From NCBI GenBank assembly GCA_002373755.1, contig DFJU01000055.1:30451-53095 (forward strand): DNA of 22,645 bases. Direction: 5' to 3'. Each line of letters begins with the position of its first letter. The stretch's first letter is position 1. This document shows positions 10,042-21,573 of this stretch, one piece after another. The notes beneath the pieces were generated by a model. That model saw only the letters and a list, made by a program, of their open reading frames with translations. It did no database searches and was not told where the DNA came from. The DNA is from Bacteroidales bacterium UBA3663 (GTDB lineage: Bacteria > Bacteroidota > Bacteroidia > Bacteroidales > UBA3663). A program made the position numbers and the translations under genes.

Positions 10042-10044
10042 CTT

Positions 10045-10087
10045 CTGAGGTTATCTGAGGTTGTGAAGTTATGAGGTTGTGAGGTTT
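10045..10087. repeat. Degenerate short tandem repeat GAGGTTnT between two lipoprotein genes
   Basis: On the plus strand GAGGTT or GAAGTT occurs at 10047, 10057, 10065, 10073 and 10081, with steps of 10, 8, 8 and 8 bp. The array ends immediately upstream of ATG 10041, so it would lie in the leader of that gene. Confidence 0.6.
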
Positions 10088-10160
10088 GTTTCGGTCACTG
10101 GGTCAATCTGCCTTAAAACCTGAAAGCGCAGTAACCTTGCAAATGGTGTGACCCTAAAAC

Positions 10161-13324: not shown

Positions 13325-13406
13325 GTAGAGACGTTTCATGAAACGTCTCTACATTCCCGCATTTGTTTTGGGCGGCTGCCACAATGTGCCAGCCCTACAT
13401 TCCCGC
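13325..13406. repeat. Two palindromic REP-like units, each ending in CTACATTCCCGC
   Basis: Unit 1 is a perfect 28-bp palindrome (13325-13352; half-site GTAGAGACGTTTCA). Unit 2 is an imperfect palindrome GGCTGCCACA-A-TGTGCCAGCC (13374-13394). The 12-mer CTACATTCCCGC follows or overlaps the end of both (13349-13360 and 13395-13406). They lie just after the stop of the mosaic gene, so they could stabilise or end its mRNA, or be dispersed genomic repeats. Confidence 0.75.
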
Positions 13407-13410
13407 GTAT

Positions 13411-16400
13411 TTATTCAACGACCGTTTTACCATTGTGGATAAACAATCCATTCTCGTTAGGTTTGCCCTTCAAACGGCGGCCATCCAGCGTGAACCAGAT
13501 TTCCTCTTTCGTTGTCACGCGCACGTTCTCGATGGTGACAGTCTCCGACTCTTCACCGAAGTCCATCACGATGGAGCGGAGCTGCGCTGCATCGGCCACA
13601 AAATCGTCATTGCCGATCTTGAAGTAGGCCCGGCAGGCACCGATGGTCGTCGTGGCCTTACCGTCGGGATAGTAGAGGTTGTTGCCGCCGCCCAGGAAGA
13701 GCACGTCCTTGTTCTCGTCGTCGAAGGTCACAAGGTCGTAAGTGCCAACGAAGCGCACCAGACGGTCGTCGCTACAGAACATGTTGTCCGTTGCATCGAT
13801 CGGGACGTATGGGAACACGGGGTTGACGATATCCGTCTCGCATTTCTCCGTCCACTTGATGATGTAGGGCACGCCGGCCTCCAGTCGGGTGACAGGCTCG
13901 TCGAAGTTGAGCGTGAGCGTCTGGCCGTTGTTGGTCAGGCTGGCCGATGCGAGCGTGCGGGCCGTCGCACCGAAGAGCGGGCTGTCCTCGTCGGTCAGAT
14001 CGACCTCGAATGGCAGGACAAGCGTGTTCCAGTCGCCGTCGCGGTAGATGGTGCGGTTGGCCAATGTCACGTTGCACAGCCTGCCGTCTGTCTTGGCGAC
14101 GATGATGCCGTTGTTCGTGGCGTTGTTGGCCAATGTGATTTCCAGCACAGGCAGCGTGTACGTCACCTCGTCGCTCCACTTGGTAGTAAGACCCTCCTTG
14201 CGGCCGCGCACCTTGAACGTATATTCAGTGGCGACAGGCAAATTCCCCAGCGTGTAAGGATTGCTCGTGACACCCTCCACGATGGTGAAGTCGGTCGCCG
14301 TATTGGACTTGTAGGCCACATCCCACGAATCATGATGTCCCTCGTATGACTGCCAGCCCAGTTCGAAGTCACCTATTTCCGGTTCCGTCACACTGAGGTC
14401 GTACGGACGGGCACTGGTCAAGAGTTGGTAAATGGTGTATCCCCCAGAAAGCGAGCCTCCAGATCCGCTGAAAAGCAGGTCTCCATCGCCGTCATTGAAC
14501 GTCCACGATGTTTCACTTGCCCAAGACCCGGCTTTCCATGCAAAGGTGTAAACCTTGCCCGCATCAAGCATCAGTTCTCCAGACGCAGATTTGCCACTGT
14601 TAATTGTCAAGGTATTGACCGTTGTGGCCGATGTCTTTTCAATCACATTGATGGCGCAACCGTTCCAACCATCACCCCAGGAATCGGCCAAGTCGTAGTT
14701 GACAACAAACACGTCTTCATCCGTAAGGACAGTGAAACTGGCCGTGGCTGTTCCGAAGCATCCAGCCTCTTCATTGCCTGCGATGGTCATGACATATTCG
14801 CCTCCTTTCTTCACCGCATCCACAGCCTCGCCGTTGCAGGTATAGGCAATCGTGTAGTCGGTTTCGGCCAATGCCTTTCCGCCACAGTCCACGACGAGAC
14901 CGACATTGACAGGCTTCCCTTCACTACAGAAATACTCAGTCTGTACGCCGCTGATGGCGCACACCGCATAATATTCCGTACCGAACAGGGTCACTTTCTT
15001 GTAAAGAGTGGTCTGGACTTCGGTGAAGACCTGCGTACCCTGCACTGTGCCGAGAGCCTGCGTGTAGTATGCACCGTTGAGCGTCGGTGTACCATTGCGG
15101 TAGAAGGTGGCATTGCCGTTTCTCACATTGACGCTTGTAGGTGCATACAGACAGTCGTTGAACACGAAATTGGTGTTGGTTCCGCCCATCGACCATGCGG
15201 CAAACGGACACCAGTTGTCAGTATTGATGCCGTCGAACGTGCCGTTGAACAGACAGTCGGTGAAGGTGAACGTCTTGCAGTCGCTTTCGATGCGACCCAC
15301 AAAACCGCCATGCGTACCGTCGCCGGTCTTGCCGGCATGGATGGTCACGCTGCTCACACAGTTCTCGATGGCGTTGTCTCCATGGGCGCGAGCCACGAAA
15401 CCTGCGGCGAACATCTTGCTTGTCGTAATTTCGCCCGTGACGGTCATGTTCTTGATGACAGCGTTCTTGATCCATTGGAACGGTGCGGCATTGTCCGCAT
15501 CGGTGCTGTAGTTGAAGGTCAGCGTATTGCCACCGCCGTCGAACGTGCCACAGAACGGATTGGCTTCCGTACCGACCATCGTCGTGACCGTGATGTCACT
15601 GTTGGCCAACTTCACCGTCTTGCCGCTGAAGGATTCGACATTGGCCACCATCGTGGCGAATGTGTTCCAGTCATCGGCATTGGCAATGACGTAGTTGCCA
15701 TCGGTATCGCAATCGACTCCAATCACATGGAACGTCTTGCTCCAAGTACCGAAGACCTCGTTCCCGTTATTGCCCGTGATGGTGATGACATATTCGCCAC
15801 GTTCCTTCACCTCGGTGGCCGATGCCCCATTGTAGGTCATCGTCAGGGTGTAGTCTTCCGATGTCATTACATCGCTGCCCGCAAAGACCTTAGGGTCAAG
15901 TTCGATGGTCTGGCCTTCGTTGTAGCAATAGTAATCTTCCACGCCGAGGACATCACACTGTGCGTAGTAATCCGTACCGAACAGCGTCACCTTCTTGCAG
16001 AGAGTCGTCTGCGGCTCGTCGAATACGCGTGTGCCTTCCTTCTTCAACACTGTCGTATTGGCTGCGACACCATTGTAGAAACAGTTGGTAAGAATGCCGC
16101 GCTTGTTGCCGCTCACGAAGATGTAGGTAAGTTGTTTCGTATTCTCTTTGGTCATCGTGAGTGAAGACGGTGCAAACAGACAGTTCGTGAGGTTGGCTGT
16201 CGCATTGGCATCCTGTGTCCAGCCGACCATGCCGCCGCCCTCATGGTTGTTGGTAAGATAGACGAAGGTGCCGGTGAAGCGGCAGTCGGACATGTTGAGC
16301 GTGCAGCCATTGTTGACACGTGCAATCAACGCACCGCCGTCCACCCAGTCGAGTGAGGATGGGGTGTAGTTCGAGATGATGTTCACATCGCTCCAGCAGT

Positions 16401-19400
16401 TCTTGACGGTACTTGTGCCTGCAACGTATGATGCGATGGAGGCAGGACGGTGACGCGCGAAATTGATGGTACCCGTGATGTGCAGGTTCTGGATGGTAGC
16501 ATTGGAGATGGTAGTGAAGATGGCCAATTCCTCATTGCCGCCCGACAGGTTGACGGTCAATGTCTTTCCGCAACCATCGAATGTGCCGGCAAATGTGCTT
16601 GGAACACGTTCCGTGACGGTAACGTCATCGCTGGCCAGTTTCACGGTCTTGCCGCTGAAGGTCTCGCCGTTGGTAATCTTTGAAGCAAAGAGACTCCAGT
16701 CATCGTTGTTGGCAATGATGTAGTTGCCCTCGGCATCGCGACCGAAGCAGACCTTGAACGTCTTGCTCCATGTGCCGCAATAGCCATTGGCCTCATTGCC
16801 CGTTACGGTCATCGTGTATTCGCCTTCGTCCTTGACTTCATTGGCCAATGCCCCGTTGTGGGTAATCGCGACGGAATAATCATCGGCCGAAAGCACCGTT
16901 CCTGCGTACTTGACGGACAATGCCGGCGTGATGGCAGAACCTGTGCATTCATAGAAGTCGTTCACGCCGCTGATGTCGCAAGTGCGGAAGACGTTGTAGC
17001 CCATAATGGACAGACTCTTATAAAGACTCTTGCTCGGGACTTCCGAGAAGACCTGTATGCCCTGAGCCTGACCAAACGTTTGCGTGTAATATGCGCCACT
17101 CATGGTCGGCGTGGTGTTGCGGTTGAAGGTGCAGGAACCCGACGTGCTCATCGTGAGCTCGGCTGGGTCGAACAGGCAATTCGTGTAGCTGGAACTGCCC
17201 GAACGGACATAGCCCAGGAAACCGCCATTGTATGTCGTCGATGCACCGAGCAACTTGCCACGGAACACGCAGTCGGTGAAGTTGGTCGTAGAGTTGTTTT
17301 CTGCAATGCCAATGAAGCCGCCATGTGTACCGTCGCCACTGATTGTACCTGTAATGCTGGCGGTGCTTGTGCAGCCTGTAATGCGAGTCGTGCCAGATGC
17401 AGAAGCAATGATGCTTGCCGCAAATTTCTTGCTGCTTTGTATCGAACCAGTGATGTGGAGGTTTTCAATAGTCGCGCCATTGGTGAAACGGAACGGAGCG
17501 GTGTATTCTTCCGTGGTAGTGTTGTAATTGACCGTCAGCGTGTGACCGCCGCCGTCGAATGTACCAGAGAACTTGTTGCTGCTTGTGCCTACCATTGTGG
17601 ATGCCACAACGTCGTTGTTGACGAGTTTCACGGTCTTGCCGCTGAAAATCTCGCCGCCAGCCACCATTTGTGCAAAAGCGTTCCATGCATCGGTGTTGGC
17701 AATCACGTAGTTGCCGTTGGCATCTTGGCTAAGGGCACCCTCCCACTGCGCGCAGAGCGTCACATTGCTATTGGTCGTGTAGGTGTCGCCAGCGGCGTAG
17801 ATGGTGCCACCGCGGCCATCGGTCACAGGGCGGACGGTATAGCCATACTCGCGGGCATAGTAGTTCACGACCACATAGGTTGGGACAAAATTGAGTTCCC
17901 ACATACTTATCGGGTATTTGAGTGTACGCGACGCGTAGTGGCCTTGCCCGCCATCGTCGAAGAGCCTATTTTCGGAATGAGCGCCCGCAGCGGGCAGGAA
18001 AATATAGTTGCCGTTCGATGCCGTGAACTTGTAGCCATTTACGCCATTCTCAGTTGTCCATGCAGACTCGGTATTGTTCACCAGTTCCTGCCATTCTTTT
18101 TCGGACGGGATCCTCCATGCGCTGCCCCAATTGACGTAGGCAGCATCATCTGCCAGTTCCAGTTCTGTCAAACCATCTGTGTCATTGTATTTGGTTATGG
18201 AGTTTTCCGTGCCTTGGCAATACTTGTAGGTTTCCCAGCCGTAACTGTTCTTGTCCTCGGTCTCGCCCCAAACGTAATAGTTGCCGTAGTCTTCAGACTT
18301 CTCGGCACCGAGGTTGCATGTTGCCCACAGCACGGACAAGCCCAAATCCACGTAGTCGTGGGTGTTAAGTGCTTTCCATCCCACAAACTTGTAGCCCTCG
18401 CGGGTCGGTACGGTTGTGGCCAATGTCAAGTCCTCGCCCTTGATTTTCGTCTGTGTTTCGGGTGCGCCCGTGCCGCCGTTGGCATCGAAGGTGAGGGTGT
18501 AGTGCTCGCGGATATCCTCCCATTGTGCGTAGAGTGTCGCTGCGGCATCGGCCGTGTAGACGTCACCAGCCGCGTAGCTCGTACCCTTGCCATCGGCCAT
18601 CGTGTTCCAACCCAAGAAGTTGAAACCTGTGCGGGTCGGCACGGTGGTGGCCAATGTCAAGTCCTCGCCTTCGGTTTTCGTCTGTGCTTCGGGGGCACCC
18701 GTGCCGCCGTTGGCATCAAATGCGATGGTGTAAACCTTTTCCCACTGGGCATAAAGCGTGATTACTTGACTGATGGTGAAAGTCGCATTGGCAGCATAGT
18801 GAGTTCCATTGCCGTCGGCCATCGTGTTCCAACCGACAAACATGTAGCCTGTTCGTTTGAAATTGTCTGGGATGCCCAAGACCGTAACTGTAGTGTTTTG
18901 GCCAGGATAATATCTGGTCTCATCTACGGGTGCGTCACCTTCTGTGTTGCCGTTGCCGTCGTAGGCAACGGTGTACCATGCACGTGCTGCACAATAGATA
19001 CAATCTCCGTTGTCGTTGAAACTATGGTTGTCGCAGTGTACCAATTTCACGTATGCGGATCTGCATGTATTGATACGTTCCTCATTGGCGACAAGCTCGT
19101 TGCTGTCCTCTGAGGCATAGACTATCATGTCAACCAAGTTCACAGTTCCGTCCTGTTCGACCCAAATGCCACCGCCGATTGCTTTTGCGTCTTTTCCACT
19201 TTTGGCCACTACCGTACCACCAGTGATGGTTACATTTCCGCCAATAGCCCACAAGCTTCCGGCACCAATGCCAGATGAGGCTCTGCCAAGACCTTCAGCA
19301 AGGACTTCACCGCCTGTTATGATCACTGTTCCGCCACCGCCATTTAGGCCGCCACCGATAGCACATCCGTATTCGCCTTGACAACGGGCTGTAACTTTGC

Positions 19401-19929
19401 CACCATGTATGACTGTCTTGCTTGCATTTCCATACCAGCCACCACCTATGGCCGCTGCTCGTCCAGCGCATGTGATGGAAATTATACCTCCGTGAATTGT
19501 GATTTCCCCACTTGTTTCGGCACTGTTTCCACCTACACAAGATATATCGACAGTACCTTGTGTGGCTATGAGGCTTCCTGTGCCACCACTTTGTGCATAG
19601 ACATTCAAGTTTGTACCGCTTTTCACATGCATACCAGCATTGGCCTTAAAGGTCGCGCCGTCGCACAAAATCAGATTGACGGTACCAGCACATTCAATAC
19701 GGCTACCTACGGAAACATTTTCCGTTACCACATACCATCCAGAACTCATCGCAGTGGTCGATGATGTTACTGTTGTAATGGTTGATGGAGACGTTTTCGT
19801 CTCAAACTCTCCGGTCTCCGTGTTGTACTTGCGATAGGACACCTGTGCCCACGCCGTACTGAAACACAACATGGCGAGCAGCACAAATACTGCCCGCGCC
19901 CAAATGTTTGGATTCTTTTTAAAGTTCAT
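13411..19929 (-). CDS. Large secreted mosaic surface protein (InlB repeats, FISUMP, GLUG-like modules, FN3, sorting-tail-like C-terminus)
   Basis: A complete frame of 2172 residues. The signal peptide ends at AWA-Q (about 28/29). Residues about 100-290 form a Gly-rich beta-solenoid-like stretch with recurring 'IGGG' and 'ITGG.V'. A small C..H...C..C motif lies at about 299-316. Three InlB-type (Listeria-Bacteroides) repeats at about 317-395, 398-473 and 476-731 end in AQWE; the third is split by a FISUMP domain (about 521-702: HDYVDLGLSVLWATCN, 'AWRIPSEKEW', 'TVRPV'). Three tandem modules follow (about 734-1060, 1061-1405, 1406-1735), each starting 'd.dGNY[VI]IAN.D.W..FA' with 'SGKTVKL' and 'GTFDG.G.TLT', then GLUG-like coils and an Ig-like end. 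The end holds DSWGDGWNG (about 1740-1840), FN3 (about 1838-1930), a 'DGDWNTLVLPF...GVPYIIKW' domain and a WFTLDGRRL...GLFIHNGK tail. An adhesin-like role is inferred. It sits directly downstream of the membrane AraC regulator. Confidence 0.93.
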   Translation of the reverse strand: MNFKKNPNIWARAVFVLLAMLCFSTAWAQVSYRKYNTETGEFETKTSPSTITTVTSSTTAMSSGWYVVTENVSVGSRIECAGTVNLILCDGATFKANAGMHVKSGTNLNVYAQSGGTGSLIATQGTVDISCVGGNSAETSGEITIHGGIISITCAGRAAAIGGGWYGNASKTVIHGGKVTARCQGEYGCAIGGGLNGGGGTVIITGGEVLAEGLGRASSGIGAGSLWAIGGNVTITGGTVVAKSGKDAKAIGGGIWVEQDGTVNLVDMIVYASEDSNELVANEERINTCRSAYVKLVHCDNHSFNDNGDCIYCAARAWYTVAYDGNGNTEGDAPVDETRYYPGQNTTVTVLGIPDNFKRTGYMFVGWNTMADGNGTHYAANATFTISQVITLYAQWEKVYTIAFDANGGTGAPEAQTKTEGEDLTLATTVPTRTGFNFLGWNTMADGKGTSYAAGDVYTADAAATLYAQWEDIREHYTLTFDANGGTGAPETQTKIKGEDLTLATTVPTREGYKFVGWKALNTHDYVDLGLSVLWATCNLGAEKSEDYGNYYVWGETEDKNSYGWETYKYCQGTENSITKYNDTDGLTELELADDAAYVNWGSAWRIPSEKEWQELVNNTESAWTTENGVNGYKFTASNGNYIFLPAAGAHSENRLFDDGGQGHYASRTLKYPISMWELNFVPTYVVVNYYAREYGYTVRPVTDGRGGTIYAAGDTYTTNSNVTLCAQWEGALSQDANGNYVIANTDAWNAFAQMVAGGEIFSGKTVKLVNNDVVASTMVGTSSNKFSGTFDGGGHTLTVNYNTTTEEYTAPFRFTNGATIENLHITGSIQSSKKFAASIIASASGTTRITGCTSTASITGTISGDGTHGGFIGIAENNSTTNFTDCVFRGKLLGASTTYNGGFLGYVRSGSSSYTNCLFDPAELTMSTSGSCTFNRNTTPTMSGAYYTQTFGQAQGIQVFSEVPSKSLYKSLSIMGYNVFRTCDISGVNDFYECTGSAITPALSVKYAGTVLSADDYSVAITHNGALANEVKDEGEYTMTVTGNEANGYCGTWSKTFKVCFGRDAEGNYIIANNDDWSLFASKITNGETFSGKTVKLASDDVTVTERVPSTFAGTFDGCGKTLTVNLSGGNEELAIFTTISNATIQNLHITGTINFARHRPASIASYVAGTSTVKNCWSDVNIISNYTPSSLDWVDGGALIARVNNGCTLNMSDCRFTGTFVYLTNNHEGGGMVGWTQDANATANLTNCLFAPSSLTMTKENTKQLTYIFVSGNKRGILTNCFYNGVAANTTVLKKEGTRVFDEPQTTLCKKVTLFGTDYYAQCDVLGVEDYYCYNEGQTIELDPKVFAGSDVMTSEDYTLTMTYNGASATEVKERGEYVITITGNNGNEVFGTWSKTFHVIGVDCDTDGNYVIANADDWNTFATMVANVESFSGKTVKLANSDITVTTMVGTEANPFCGTFDGGGNTLTFNYSTDADNAAPFQWIKNAVIKNMTVTGEITTSKMFAAGFVARAHGDNAIENCVSSVTIHAGKTGDGTHGGFVGRIESDCKTFTFTDCLFNGTFDGINTDNWCPFAAWSMGGTNTNFVFNDCLYAPTSVNVRNGNATFYRNGTPTLNGAYYTQALGTVQGTQVFTEVQTTLYKKVTLFGTEYYAVCAISGVQTEYFCSEGKPVNVGLVVDCGGKALAETDYTIAYTCNGEAVDAVKKGGEYVMTIAGNEEAGCFGTATASFTVLTDEDVFVVNYDLADSWGDGWNGCAINVIEKTSATTVNTLTINSGKSASGELMLDAGKVYTFAWKAGSWASETSWTFNDGDGDLLFSGSGGSLSGGYTIYQLLTSARPYDLSVTEPEIGDFELGWQSYEGHHDSWDVAYKSNTATDFTIVEGVTSNPYTLGNLPVATEYTFKVRGRKEGLTTKWSDEVTYTLPVLEITLANNATNNGIIVAKTDGRLCNVTLANRTIYRDGDWNTLVLPFEVDLTDEDSPLFGATARTLASASLTNNGQTLTLNFDEPVTRLEAGVPYIIKWTEKCETDIVNPVFPYVPIDATDNMFCSDDRLVRFVGTYDLVTFDDENKDVLFLGGGNNLYYPDGKATTTIGACRAYFKIGNDDFVADAAQLRSIVMDFGEESETVTIENVRVTTKEEIWFTLDGRRLKGKPNENGLFIHNGKTVVE
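18400..18733. repeat. Near-identical direct DNA repeats inside the mosaic gene (InlB repeats 2 and 3)
   Basis: Segments of about 102 bp at 18400-18502 and 18631-18733, offset by 231 bp (77 codons), are nearly identical at the DNA level, including synonymous positions. They encode 'FDANGGTGAPE.QTK..GEDLTLATTVPTR'. This suggests recent duplication or gene conversion and a possible site for repeat-number change. Confidence 0.8.
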
Positions 19930-19993
19930 AAAATTGGATAATAAAAGTGATGAAATTCAAATCAAGAATGTTTGTCTTTTTCGTTTGTCGCCG

Positions 19994-20001
19994 CAAAGGT
20001 G
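19994..20001 (-). promoter_or_regulatory. Candidate -7 box CACCTTTG (proximal, mosaic gene)
   Basis: CACCTTTG on the minus strand has one mismatch to TAnnTTTG. It shares the longer word ACCTTTGCGG with the box at 11468-11475, which supports a real promoter. It would give a leader of about 60 nt before ATG 19929 and would place the repeat arrays upstream, in operator-like positions. Confidence 0.5.
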
Positions 20002-20070
20002 CGATAATCGCGCGTGACACGTGTGCCATTGCGAGAAAAGGCTGTCCCAAATCGGGAAAAAGTTCAGTCG

Positions 20071-20110
20071 GGAAGATTTTCCACCTGACGGTTAATGTAG
20101 AAAATCTTCC
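20071..20110. repeat. 11-bp perfect inverted repeat upstream of the mosaic gene
   Basis: GGAAGATTTTC (20071-20081) and GAAAATCTTCC (20100-20110) are separated by 18 nt. On the minus strand no clean T-run follows, so a simple terminator is unlikely. An attenuator, RNA-stability element or protein site is possible. Confidence 0.65.
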
Positions 20111-20160
20111 AACGATGACATTCTCCTGTCCAAATGCGCCCCATAAGTGGAAGTTTTGGA

Positions 20161-20290
20161 AAGAAGTTAGCGGAAGTTATTAGGAGTTATCACTTCGCTC
20201 TGGGAGTTAACGGACGTTTCTACTGAGTGTCTAAAGCACTCCCAACAACCATAACATTCGTCTGTTAACTCCCGTTATCTTCTGTTAACT
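20161..20290. repeat. Two opposed arrays of 10-bp-phased GTTA repeats around a 15-bp inverted repeat
   Basis: On the plus strand GTTA occurs at 20166, 20176, 20186 and 20206 (unit about nnGGAGTTAn; degenerate GTTT at 20216). In the opposite sense it occurs at 20264, 20274 and 20284 (unit about tCTGTTAACT). The inner units form arms GGGAGTTAACGGACG (20202-20216) and CGTCTGTTAACTCCC (20259-20273) with one mismatch. The 42-bp spacer holds a GAGTG...CACTC hairpin (20225-20241). The exact 10-bp step places the units on one face of the helix. Confidence 0.75.
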
Positions 20291-20373
20291 CCATGAAATC
20301 AACTCCTTTATCGCACTTGCAAAACCTAATGCAATTGTTTCGTCGAAAGTCGAAAAACTTTGTTTTTGCTCCA

Positions 20374-20381
20374 CAAAGGTA
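20374..20381 (-). promoter_or_regulatory. Candidate -7 box TACCTTTG (distal, upstream of the mosaic gene)
   Basis: TACCTTTG on the minus strand is an exact match to the Bacteroidetes -7 consensus TAnnTTTG. A TTTG lies 24 nt upstream, longer than the usual spacing for a -33 element. If used, it gives a leader of about 440 nt that would contain both inverted repeats. Confidence 0.5.
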
Positions 20382-20481
20382 GGGAAATCGGTTCACAGAA
20401 GGGCGCAAAGCCATGTTGCAATATCGGGAAACGATGTTGCAAATATGCAAATAATTGAAAATGAGATGATTGAAGAAGTGG

Positions 20482-21573
20482 TTAAAGTGCGGCCACGAAG
20501 TCGGTTGGAGAGATGCCGATGAATTTCACGAAGTTGCGGTAGGCTGCAGTGCGGCTACGGAATCCGGCCTCGAAATAAAGCCTCTTGTGGTCTTGCCGAG
20601 GGTCGCGGCGCAACTCATCGGCCATAAACTCGATGCGCTTGTGGTTCAAGAAATCGTTGAACGTCATGCCAGTGTGCTCGCGGATGCTCAGCGACAAGTA
20701 ATGGCGGTTGGTGCCAACACTGCGGCTCACGGTTTCGACCGTCGCGTCGGGGTTGCGCCATTCCTCGCGGTCGTCCATCAGCTGGCAGATGCGCGGCCAA
20801 TAGTCTCTCGTGTCGGGCACCGTGTCCACGCCTTTCCCATTGTCGGCCAATGCCGGGGCAGACTCCACATCGGCCAAGTCATCCTCCTTGTCGGCCGGCG
20901 GCAGAAGACGGTCGCTGAATTCGTGGTAGGTCAGGTAACCCACCACAAAGATGCACCACGACATGTGCAGGCAAAAGAATATTGACATGTTGGTGAAGGC
21001 CTCGCAATAGAAAAGCAACGTCATCACCACTCCCATCAACGTCGTGCGGCAAATCCAGCCGAAGTCGGCACTCGACTTGCGCCAGTTGTAGGGAATGAAG
21101 AACAATATCAACGAAATGGCGGCGAGCAGCACAAGGCACACGATGCGCAACCAGACATCAAAATCGCCGATGTGTGCCACCAGATCGTCCCACGAATGCA
21201 GCACTCGGCATTGCATCCCGAACAGCATCGGCAATGTGACAAGCAACAACGGCAGGAAGAGCAGCAGAAGCCAGACGCCACACAACTGGCGCGGACGCAT
21301 CACCTCAATCGGGTAGCAGAGGTACATGATGGTGGCAAACAGGCCTCCGAAGACCAGTTCCGGCGCAAGCAGAATCCGTGAAAAATTGGGCTGCGGCCAC
21401 ACGTAGCTGTATGACAGGAACAGCGAGCAACCGACGCCGACCCACAGACAGAAAACTGCCAGATAGGCCCGTGAGCGGTCGGGCACGTCCTTGCGCTTAG
21501 CCCACAGCAGGCTGCCGCCTACAAGACACACCGTCATGCAGATGCTGACCAGAATAATAGTAATGTAATCCAT
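20482..21573 (-). CDS. Membrane-bound AraC-type transcriptional regulator (7TM sensor + HTH)
   Basis: A 363-residue protein. Residues about 2-215 contain seven hydrophobic segments (starting YITIILVSICMTVCLVGG; also LCGVWLLLLFLPLLLVTLPM and IVCLVLLAAISLILFF) with only short loops, so the sensor part would be embedded in the inner membrane with no large periplasmic domain. A charged linker (about 218-255) leads to an AraC/XylS-type DNA-binding domain (about 257-363): a first helix-turn-helix around 'ATVETVSRSVGTNRHYLSLSI' positions, 'FLNHKRIEFMADELR', and a second around 'GFRSRTAAYRNFVKFIGISP'. The next gene in the same direction is the large mosaic surface protein, 552 nt away across a repeat-rich region, so a cis target is plausible but unproven. 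The ligand is unknown. No clear TAnnTTTG box was found upstream. Confidence 0.92.
   Translation of the reverse strand: MDYITIILVSICMTVCLVGGSLLWAKRKDVPDRSRAYLAVFCLWVGVGCSLFLSYSYVWPQPNFSRILLAPELVFGGLFATIMYLCYPIEVMRPRQLCGVWLLLLFLPLLLVTLPMLFGMQCRVLHSWDDLVAHIGDFDVWLRIVCLVLLAAISLILFFIPYNWRKSSADFGWICRTTLMGVVMTLLFYCEAFTNMSIFFCLHMSWCIFVVGYLTYHEFSDRLLPPADKEDDLADVESAPALADNGKGVDTVPDTRDYWPRICQLMDDREEWRNPDATVETVSRSVGTNRHYLSLSIREHTGMTFNDFLNHKRIEFMADELRRDPRQDHKRLYFEAGFRSRTAAYRNFVKFIGISPTDFVAAL

Follow-up and report, generated by a model that had tools for sequence, protein, structure and literature searches.

Inverted decamer arrays beside an AraC-type regulator gene in a Bacteroidales genome probably represent one copy of a dispersed, hairpin-forming intergenic element

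We examined a stretch of 22,645 nucleotides from Bacteroidales bacterium UBA3663 (hereafter the window). Within it, the gap between the gene for a membrane AraC-type regulator and that for a giant surface protein contains two arrays of short units that face each other across a core (Table 1). The starts of the GTTA motif given in the initial annotation (20166, 20176, 20186 and 20206) were found again, with 10-bp steps and one step of 20. The missing step, at 20196, reflects a 15-nt insert that occupies that place, and inserts resembling it are present in other copies too. On the right side, GTTA does read on the plus strand at 20264, 20274 and 20284, in part because the units contain the palindrome GTTAAC, but the truly inverted unit is TAACTCC, found at 20266-20272 and 20286-20292 with a degenerate unit between them. 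The nested inverted repeat proposed earlier is real, as an inverted-repeat search recovered a 28-nt arm pair (20165-20192 / 20263-20290, 75% complementarity) and a nested 15-nt pair (20202-20216 / 20259-20273, 93% complementarity).

The core ends in the window read GGACGTTTC...AACATTCGTCT, and a small hairpin lies inside the core (GAGTG at 20225-20229, CACTC at 20237-20241). Compared with shuffles, the window copy folds with z = -2.44 as DNA and, less clearly, with z = -1.69 as minus-strand RNA. The nine-codon frame in this region terminates at a TAA within a repeat unit and seems to require no explanation of its own. Between the regulator stop and the element, on the minus strand, lies the motif TACCTTTG (20381-20374), which fits the Bacteroidetes -7 consensus, TAnnTTTG.

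Table 1. The repeat element in the window, its parts and its flanking genes.
Feature	Position	Strand	Evidence
Flanking gene: 2172 aa, Listeria-Bacteroides repeats (Flg_new) and fn3; start 233 nt from element	13411..19929	-	
Whole element: inverted decamer arrays flanking core	20163..20292	.	Coordinates, inverted repeats, R1 match
Left array: GAAGTTA, GAAGTTA, GGAGTTA, 10-bp step	20163..20189	+	Pattern counts
Insert in left arm, 15 nt, TCACTTCGCTCTGGG, resembles TCGCTTCGCT insert of other copies	20190..20204	+	A-side spacer comparison (row L264)
Proximal left unit GGAGTTAAC, adjoins core, pairs with right arm	20203..20211	+	Inverted repeats, fold
Core, 52 nt, ends GGACG...CGTCT	20212..20263	.	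Core extraction (rows window and L264)
Right array: inverted TAACTCC units (20266, 20286), degenerate middle	20264..20292	-	Inverted repeats
Flanking gene: 363-aa protein, AraC-type HTH_18 domain, 190 nt from element	20482..21573	-	

Arrays of this type are found at many places in the host genome. The pattern GTTA-N6-GTTA-N6-GTTA occurs 26 times in the assembly versus 0 times when read backwards, and GRAGTTA-N3-GRAGTTA occurs 52 times versus 0 reversed. The paired units group into 24 loci. The dispersed Bacteroidales microrepeat offered earlier as an alternative is supported, and the repeat proves to be a structured element. No predicted ORF contains any of the 24 loci, and 19 of them have a start or stop codon no more than 26 nt away to one side or both. 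Median distances are 12 nt to stop codons (21 distances) and 25 nt to start codons (24 distances, approximate because ORF prediction simply took the longest frame). Three loci at contig ends, where a neighbour is missing, could not be classified; 18 of the other 21 lie between co-oriented genes, and the corresponding figure for gaps of at least 100 bp in a sister sample is 286 of 472 (Fisher p 0.014). The window copy departs from the usual placement, its neighbours being 233 and 190 nt away.

A domain scan covered one neighbouring protein each at 19 of the 23 other host loci. The proteins are unrelated: DHFR, ThiC, histidinol dehydrogenase (HisD), ETF, an ACT-domain protein, ABC transporter, HlyD, MFS, sulfatase, aminotransferase, thioredoxin-like, DUF1573 and Gate proteins, five glycoside hydrolases and one SusD-like protein. 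AraC-type proteins account for 0 of the 19 (E <= 1e-5), and the initial idea of a helically phased operator serving the adjacent 7TM-AraC regulator is not supported.

Of the 14 other genus genomes one, G009, encodes an ortholog of the regulator (90% identity), and the remaining matches in the genus share 23-34% identity over the C-terminal part only. G009 keeps the order epimerase, regulator, giant gene, and the end of the giant gene is 94% identical in DNA. In this one genome the array is absent from the gap between regulator and giant gene; the absence from an orthologous locus with the regulator, which had been named as evidence against an operator, was thus observed. The stop-to-start gap measures 118 or 202 bp in G009, depending on the choice of ATG, versus 552 bp in the window, and the region has possibly been exchanged, since the two giant genes cannot be aligned at their starts.

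In 1.44 Mb of G009, flanks could be paired for seven further host loci, which gives 8 sites including the window; the other 16 of the 24 loci have no paired orthologous site in this sample. The 8 sites include L073, paired at only 61-63% identity, and L064, paired via a distant right-flank match with the near flank read by eye. At three sites (L064, L068 and L077) an 8-mer inverted array occupies the same place in G009, for which a rough baseline of 16 period-8 arrays in 538 intergenic segments gives a binomial p of 0.0013. The host locus L064 retains right-hand 8-mer units beyond its decamer array, and one element therefore appears to be nested in or overlaid on the other. The decamer array followed by 8-mer remains (L064:3330-3420) can be set beside the 8-mer element of the sister (L354:3445-3560). 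The window, L065, L072 and L073 have no array in G009, and L061 (compared with L324) reads as a deletion and not as a pre-insertion site because the sister retains two TAACT units. At a given site, sister species differ in whether a copy is present and in the type of array, and the unit sequence and period of the inverted arrays vary between copies and species.

Pattern extraction from all collected loci recovered 68 distinct cores between arrays. The commonest length is 49 nt (13 of 68), 10 more are 48 or 50 nt long, and the others range from 32 to 84 nt. The core is asymmetric, with an A end GGACGWTACC and a B end ACATTYGTCC, and these ends are common to 10-mer and 11-mer elements. The A-side array enters the core directly in 52 of 63 oriented elements (spacer 4 or 5 nt) and with an insert in 11; on the B side, 40 of the 63 carry an insert of 13 to 41 nt. 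Eight of the 11 A-side inserts come from the host genome and are mostly of the TCGCTTCGCT type, a variant of which lies at 20190-20204 in the window. Small hairpins make up many of the inserts, and their stems vary (ACAGGCT, ACAAGCC, GCGC, GCGGCT, ACTGGC, ACGAGCC and others). Mini-hairpin stems of at least 4 bp are present in 36 of 47 spacers of 10-26 nt, versus a mean of 3.9 and a maximum of 10 in 500 shuffles. This stem count used the B side of oriented elements and either side of unoriented ones, the 11 A-side inserts being left out; the 12 of 75 elements that could not be oriented enter the stem count and are omitted from the A/B count. The end-pair, core, junction and spacer surveys all used strict patterns and therefore missed diverged copies.

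An alignment of 25 elements, all from other genomes (A2), folds as arm helices plus a side hairpin. Paired cells make up 95.1% versus 88.7% in shuffled alignments, two-sided compensated cells number 47 versus 16.6, and the covariation score is 0.231 versus 0.125 (each 0/500). Among the five covariation measures, the two least inflated by relatedness are not clearly above shuffled values: pairs with two-sided change (9 versus 6.9, reached by 47/500) and pair types (22 versus 20.0, reached by 88/500). Sliding the partner lowers pairing to 29-43%. In the side hairpin, two-sided changes occur at 4 of 4 pairs and 82% of cells are paired. The junction dinucleotides of both arms match at 113 of 150 positions versus 90.2 when shuffled (0/5000), the elements compared being related to each other.

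The covariance model built from these 25 elements, and so without the host genome (R1), matches the window copy on the minus strand at 20162-20287 (58.4 bits, E 2.8e-11) and on the plus strand at 20178-20293 (49.5 bits). The near symmetry of the element leads to matches on both strands at many loci, and for the window copy the core ends favor one orientation and R1 the opposite. R1 matches 18 of 23 sources from the host genome, the window included (E <= 0.1), and finds no match at the other five (L070, L075, L078, L079 and L080).

R1 also matches 13 of 15 genomes of the genus, the host's own included (E <= 0.001; both strands counted, at most 150 candidates scored per genome). Among the same 15 genomes, triple-pattern matches range from 0 to 133, with at least 6 in 8 of them; the genomes are incomplete (63-90%), which blurs absences. 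These are counts of patterns and not of elements, and the congeners mix repeat dialects (for example, GTTAAGAGGG direct arrays). The scatter over hundreds of unrelated sites that the initial annotation had envisaged is only partly seen, with 24 loci in the host and 109 (G001) and 133 pattern matches in two congeners. Outside the genus the triple pattern is seldom seen, and its count often does not exceed that of its reversed control. In an order-wide search of 198 genomes, R1 matches at least 3, of which two belong to this genus, a lower bound because filters were strict and 18 candidates were scored per genome.

A pattern that combines two units with the beginning of the core has matches in at least 117 stretches from genomes of named organisms. 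Among the 80 of these that were listed are Prevotella, Prevotellaceae, Bacteroidaceae, Bacteroides, Bacteroidales, Marseilla massiliensis and Candidatus Minthosoma caballi, the last two of which are also Bacteroidales, and several of the 80 are of rumen, abomasum or other gut origin. Searches against plasmids and phages, with one copy each, gave no match. Four IMG/VR contigs match the three-unit pattern, and the core ends are absent from all four. Rfam gave no match for window positions 19800-20700 or for four loci with strong copies.

Other array dialects were found in the sister genomes. R1 also matches elements with 11-mer arrays (AAAAGGGGAGT type) in G006 and G009, whose core ends are GGGACGATACC...AAACGTCC. 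In a larger G009 sample, inverted 8-mer pairs (AGGTT units) and inverted 7-mer pairs (AGTTA units) share the polarity of the decamers in 8 of 8 and 5 of 5 cases, respectively; the simple patterns used found no inverted 9-, 10- or 11-mer pairs there, and a GGAC core is not visible by eye in the 7- and 8-mer families. As a separate observation, G006 (L128, L129, L132) and G012 (L139, L140, L143, L145) carry minisatellites with 41-42 bp units in up to about 8 copies.

Searches for a transposase, a target duplication or an outer terminus found none, and mobility is for this reason only inferred. The element carries inverted arms. The end-pair survey took in 80 of the at least 117 matched stretches; in its 137 loci, no more than 202 bp separates the left and right ends in 50 neighboring pairs, and no gene-bearing version was seen. 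Five alignments inspected (from the 7 paired sites and the window locus) contain no clean target-site duplication, and one deletion-like footprint is present among the paired sites. Matches to PF01797 occur in 3 of the 10 genus genomes scanned, the host's own included. Across the whole survey (16 genomes, 10 of the genus) they do not track array number: G001, with its 109 triple matches, has no PF01797 match. R1 finds nothing in the 16 loci around such matches. The host encodes a RAYT-like protein (MPNHVHVL...YISDNP, L087:1051-1899) that scores 64 bits against NCBIfam REP_Tyr_transpos, below the cut-off of 80. Its gene is flanked by different repeats, ending in CTCCTTGT, and among the 15 incomplete genus genomes the protein is found in the host's own only. 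Mobilization by RAYT was rejected on these grounds.

Several known repeat systems share properties with the element. Like REP, REPIN and BIME sequences, it is short, multi-copy and intergenic, forms inverted pairs that can give a long hairpin, and has species-specific copy numbers; the CGTC motif is also present at its core ends. According to the portions consulted of one account, REPs have a tag beside a single stem, of 8-9 bp for the CGTC type and 5-13 bp for the GTAG type (PMC3733652). Here, there is no GTAG tag and no CGTC-type stem of 8-9 bp, the arms are short tandem arrays, and no linked RAYT was found. Membership among the CGTC-REPs was rejected because the structure is one of arrays around a core and not a tagged single stem. 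The element works like a REPIN or BIME, yet it has no tagged stem, and no RAYT gene flanked by its repeats was found in the incomplete genomes scanned.

Among repeats of Bacteroidales, BrickBuilt is outlined as a Porphyromonas gingivalis MITE with 23-nt direct repeats, a leader and tail, and IS-like terminal repeats, and the sections seen report no BLASTn match outside P. gingivalis (PMC4596501). It is likewise intergenic, with a minisatellite within the element and predicted long stem-loops, but the units here are 10-11 nt long and form two inverted arrays around a core. The PINSR repeat of Prevotella intermedia/nigrescens, also intergenic, is summarized as 188 bp long, with about 180 copies and without terminal inverted repeats (PMC4755523); by this description it differs from the element. 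The TAACTGA repeats are, in the excerpts available, 7-bp direct repeats in intergenic DNA of Beggiatoaceae, Cyanobacteria and Bacteroidetes, with one inverted case, a phylogenetically scattered distribution and, in one species, a position mostly just upstream of start codons (PMC4679880). They share short TAACT-type tandem units with the element; those excerpts describe no core, whereas here 10-bp units are inverted around one, and families in congeners use 7 bp. For Bacteroidetes TnpAREP subclass 2.6, one account mentions genes flanked by "atypical secondary structures" with copies elsewhere in the genome (PMC6006769). These structures are a possible counterpart of the element, and the RAYT-like gene of the host has different flanking repeats. 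In the parts of the open-access (PMC) literature consulted, we found no description of the element.

Taken together, we consider it very probable that the feature in the window is a copy of a non-coding element that forms hairpins and is dispersed through intergenic DNA of Prevotella-like Bacteroidales. Such an element would spread in trans via an enzyme that recognizes the folded single strand, and its arrays could then lengthen, shorten and change by slippage. Copies would persist for the most part where a short gap separates two co-oriented genes and a transcript across the gap may fold into a long hairpin, as with BIME/REPIN; their presence at gene junctions could reflect tolerance or a mild RNA role. 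At this locus, the presence of the element beside the AraC regulator is best taken as incidental, and a dedicated switch for the adjacent surface-protein gene is unlikely. It is highly improbable that, as the initial annotation favored, the membrane AraC protein acts on the giant surface gene by cooperative binding to phased units. That idea draws on the position of the array between the two genes, the HTH_18 domain of the regulator and the regular spacing of the units. However, like arrays at 23 other loci have no AraC-type protein among their 19 scanned neighbors, and the array is missing from the orthologous locus in G009 (1 of 14 other genus genomes, in which the giant gene start is not alignable). 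Helical phasing was rejected because sibling arrays have periods of 7, 8 and 11, and the 10-bp step therefore looks like the length of the repeat unit. Binding by a general protein involved in nucleoid structure or segregation would account for the many copies, regular units and fixed polarity, but this is very unlikely given that pattern matches vary from 0 to 133 within one genus and that unit sequence and period switch.

A role in RNA, as an intercistronic or leader hairpin that shields mRNA ends, attenuates transcription or separates the translation of adjacent genes, is possible, although we are inclined to doubt it. A structure in a leader RNA was also the second alternative of the initial annotation. 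The copies lie between co-oriented genes and close to stops and starts, the stems are compensated, and the TACCTTTG motif, if used, would put the window copy within the leader RNA of the giant gene. On the other hand, the RNA fold of the window copy is weak, Rfam has no match, a sister species lacks the element at the same gene pair, and tolerance alone could explain the placement. Plain microsatellite growth through polymerase slippage, with no element at all, is quite unlikely. Arrays of period 5-12 are indeed enriched in non-coding DNA of the sister G009 (84, versus 59 in coding DNA, in a first sample of 1.15 Mb of which 90.4% was called coding), and one mononucleotide shuffle of the 538 intergenic segments yielded 0, but slippage alone would not produce defined core ends, inverted partners of one polarity or a core common to different species. 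It is also conceivable, if unlikely, that an enzyme extends both ends of a folded core with units of constant polarity, and that elements replace or nest in one another. The units would be 7, 8, 10 or 11 bp by family, in a process resembling templated end-extension, and replacement or nesting at fixed gaps would lead to differing repeat dialects at the same site in sister species.

If the reading as a dispersed element is right, the intergenic DNA of Prevotella-like gut and rumen bacteria harbors a family of structured repeats, single copies of which are easily taken for operators or RNA leaders. With a core, a side hairpin and arrays that can be exchanged, the family would be well suited to the questions of how interspersed repeats of bacteria spread when no transposase is linked to them and whether arrays at gene junctions affect expression.

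Two further repeats were observed elsewhere in the window. At 10044-10140, in a gap between two co-oriented genes, an 8-mer array with units of the TGAGGTTN type (10044-10086) faces AACCTGA and AACCTTGC on the opposite side; the inverted-repeat search reports no inverted pair there, and the feature may be a degraded element of the 8-mer inverted-array kind. A perfect palindrome with 14-nt arms (GTAGAGACGTTTCA/TGAAACGTCTCTAC) occupies 13325-13352, in the gap that lies downstream of the giant gene. This may be another dispersed repeat, because a near-identical palindrome adjoins the element in L075.
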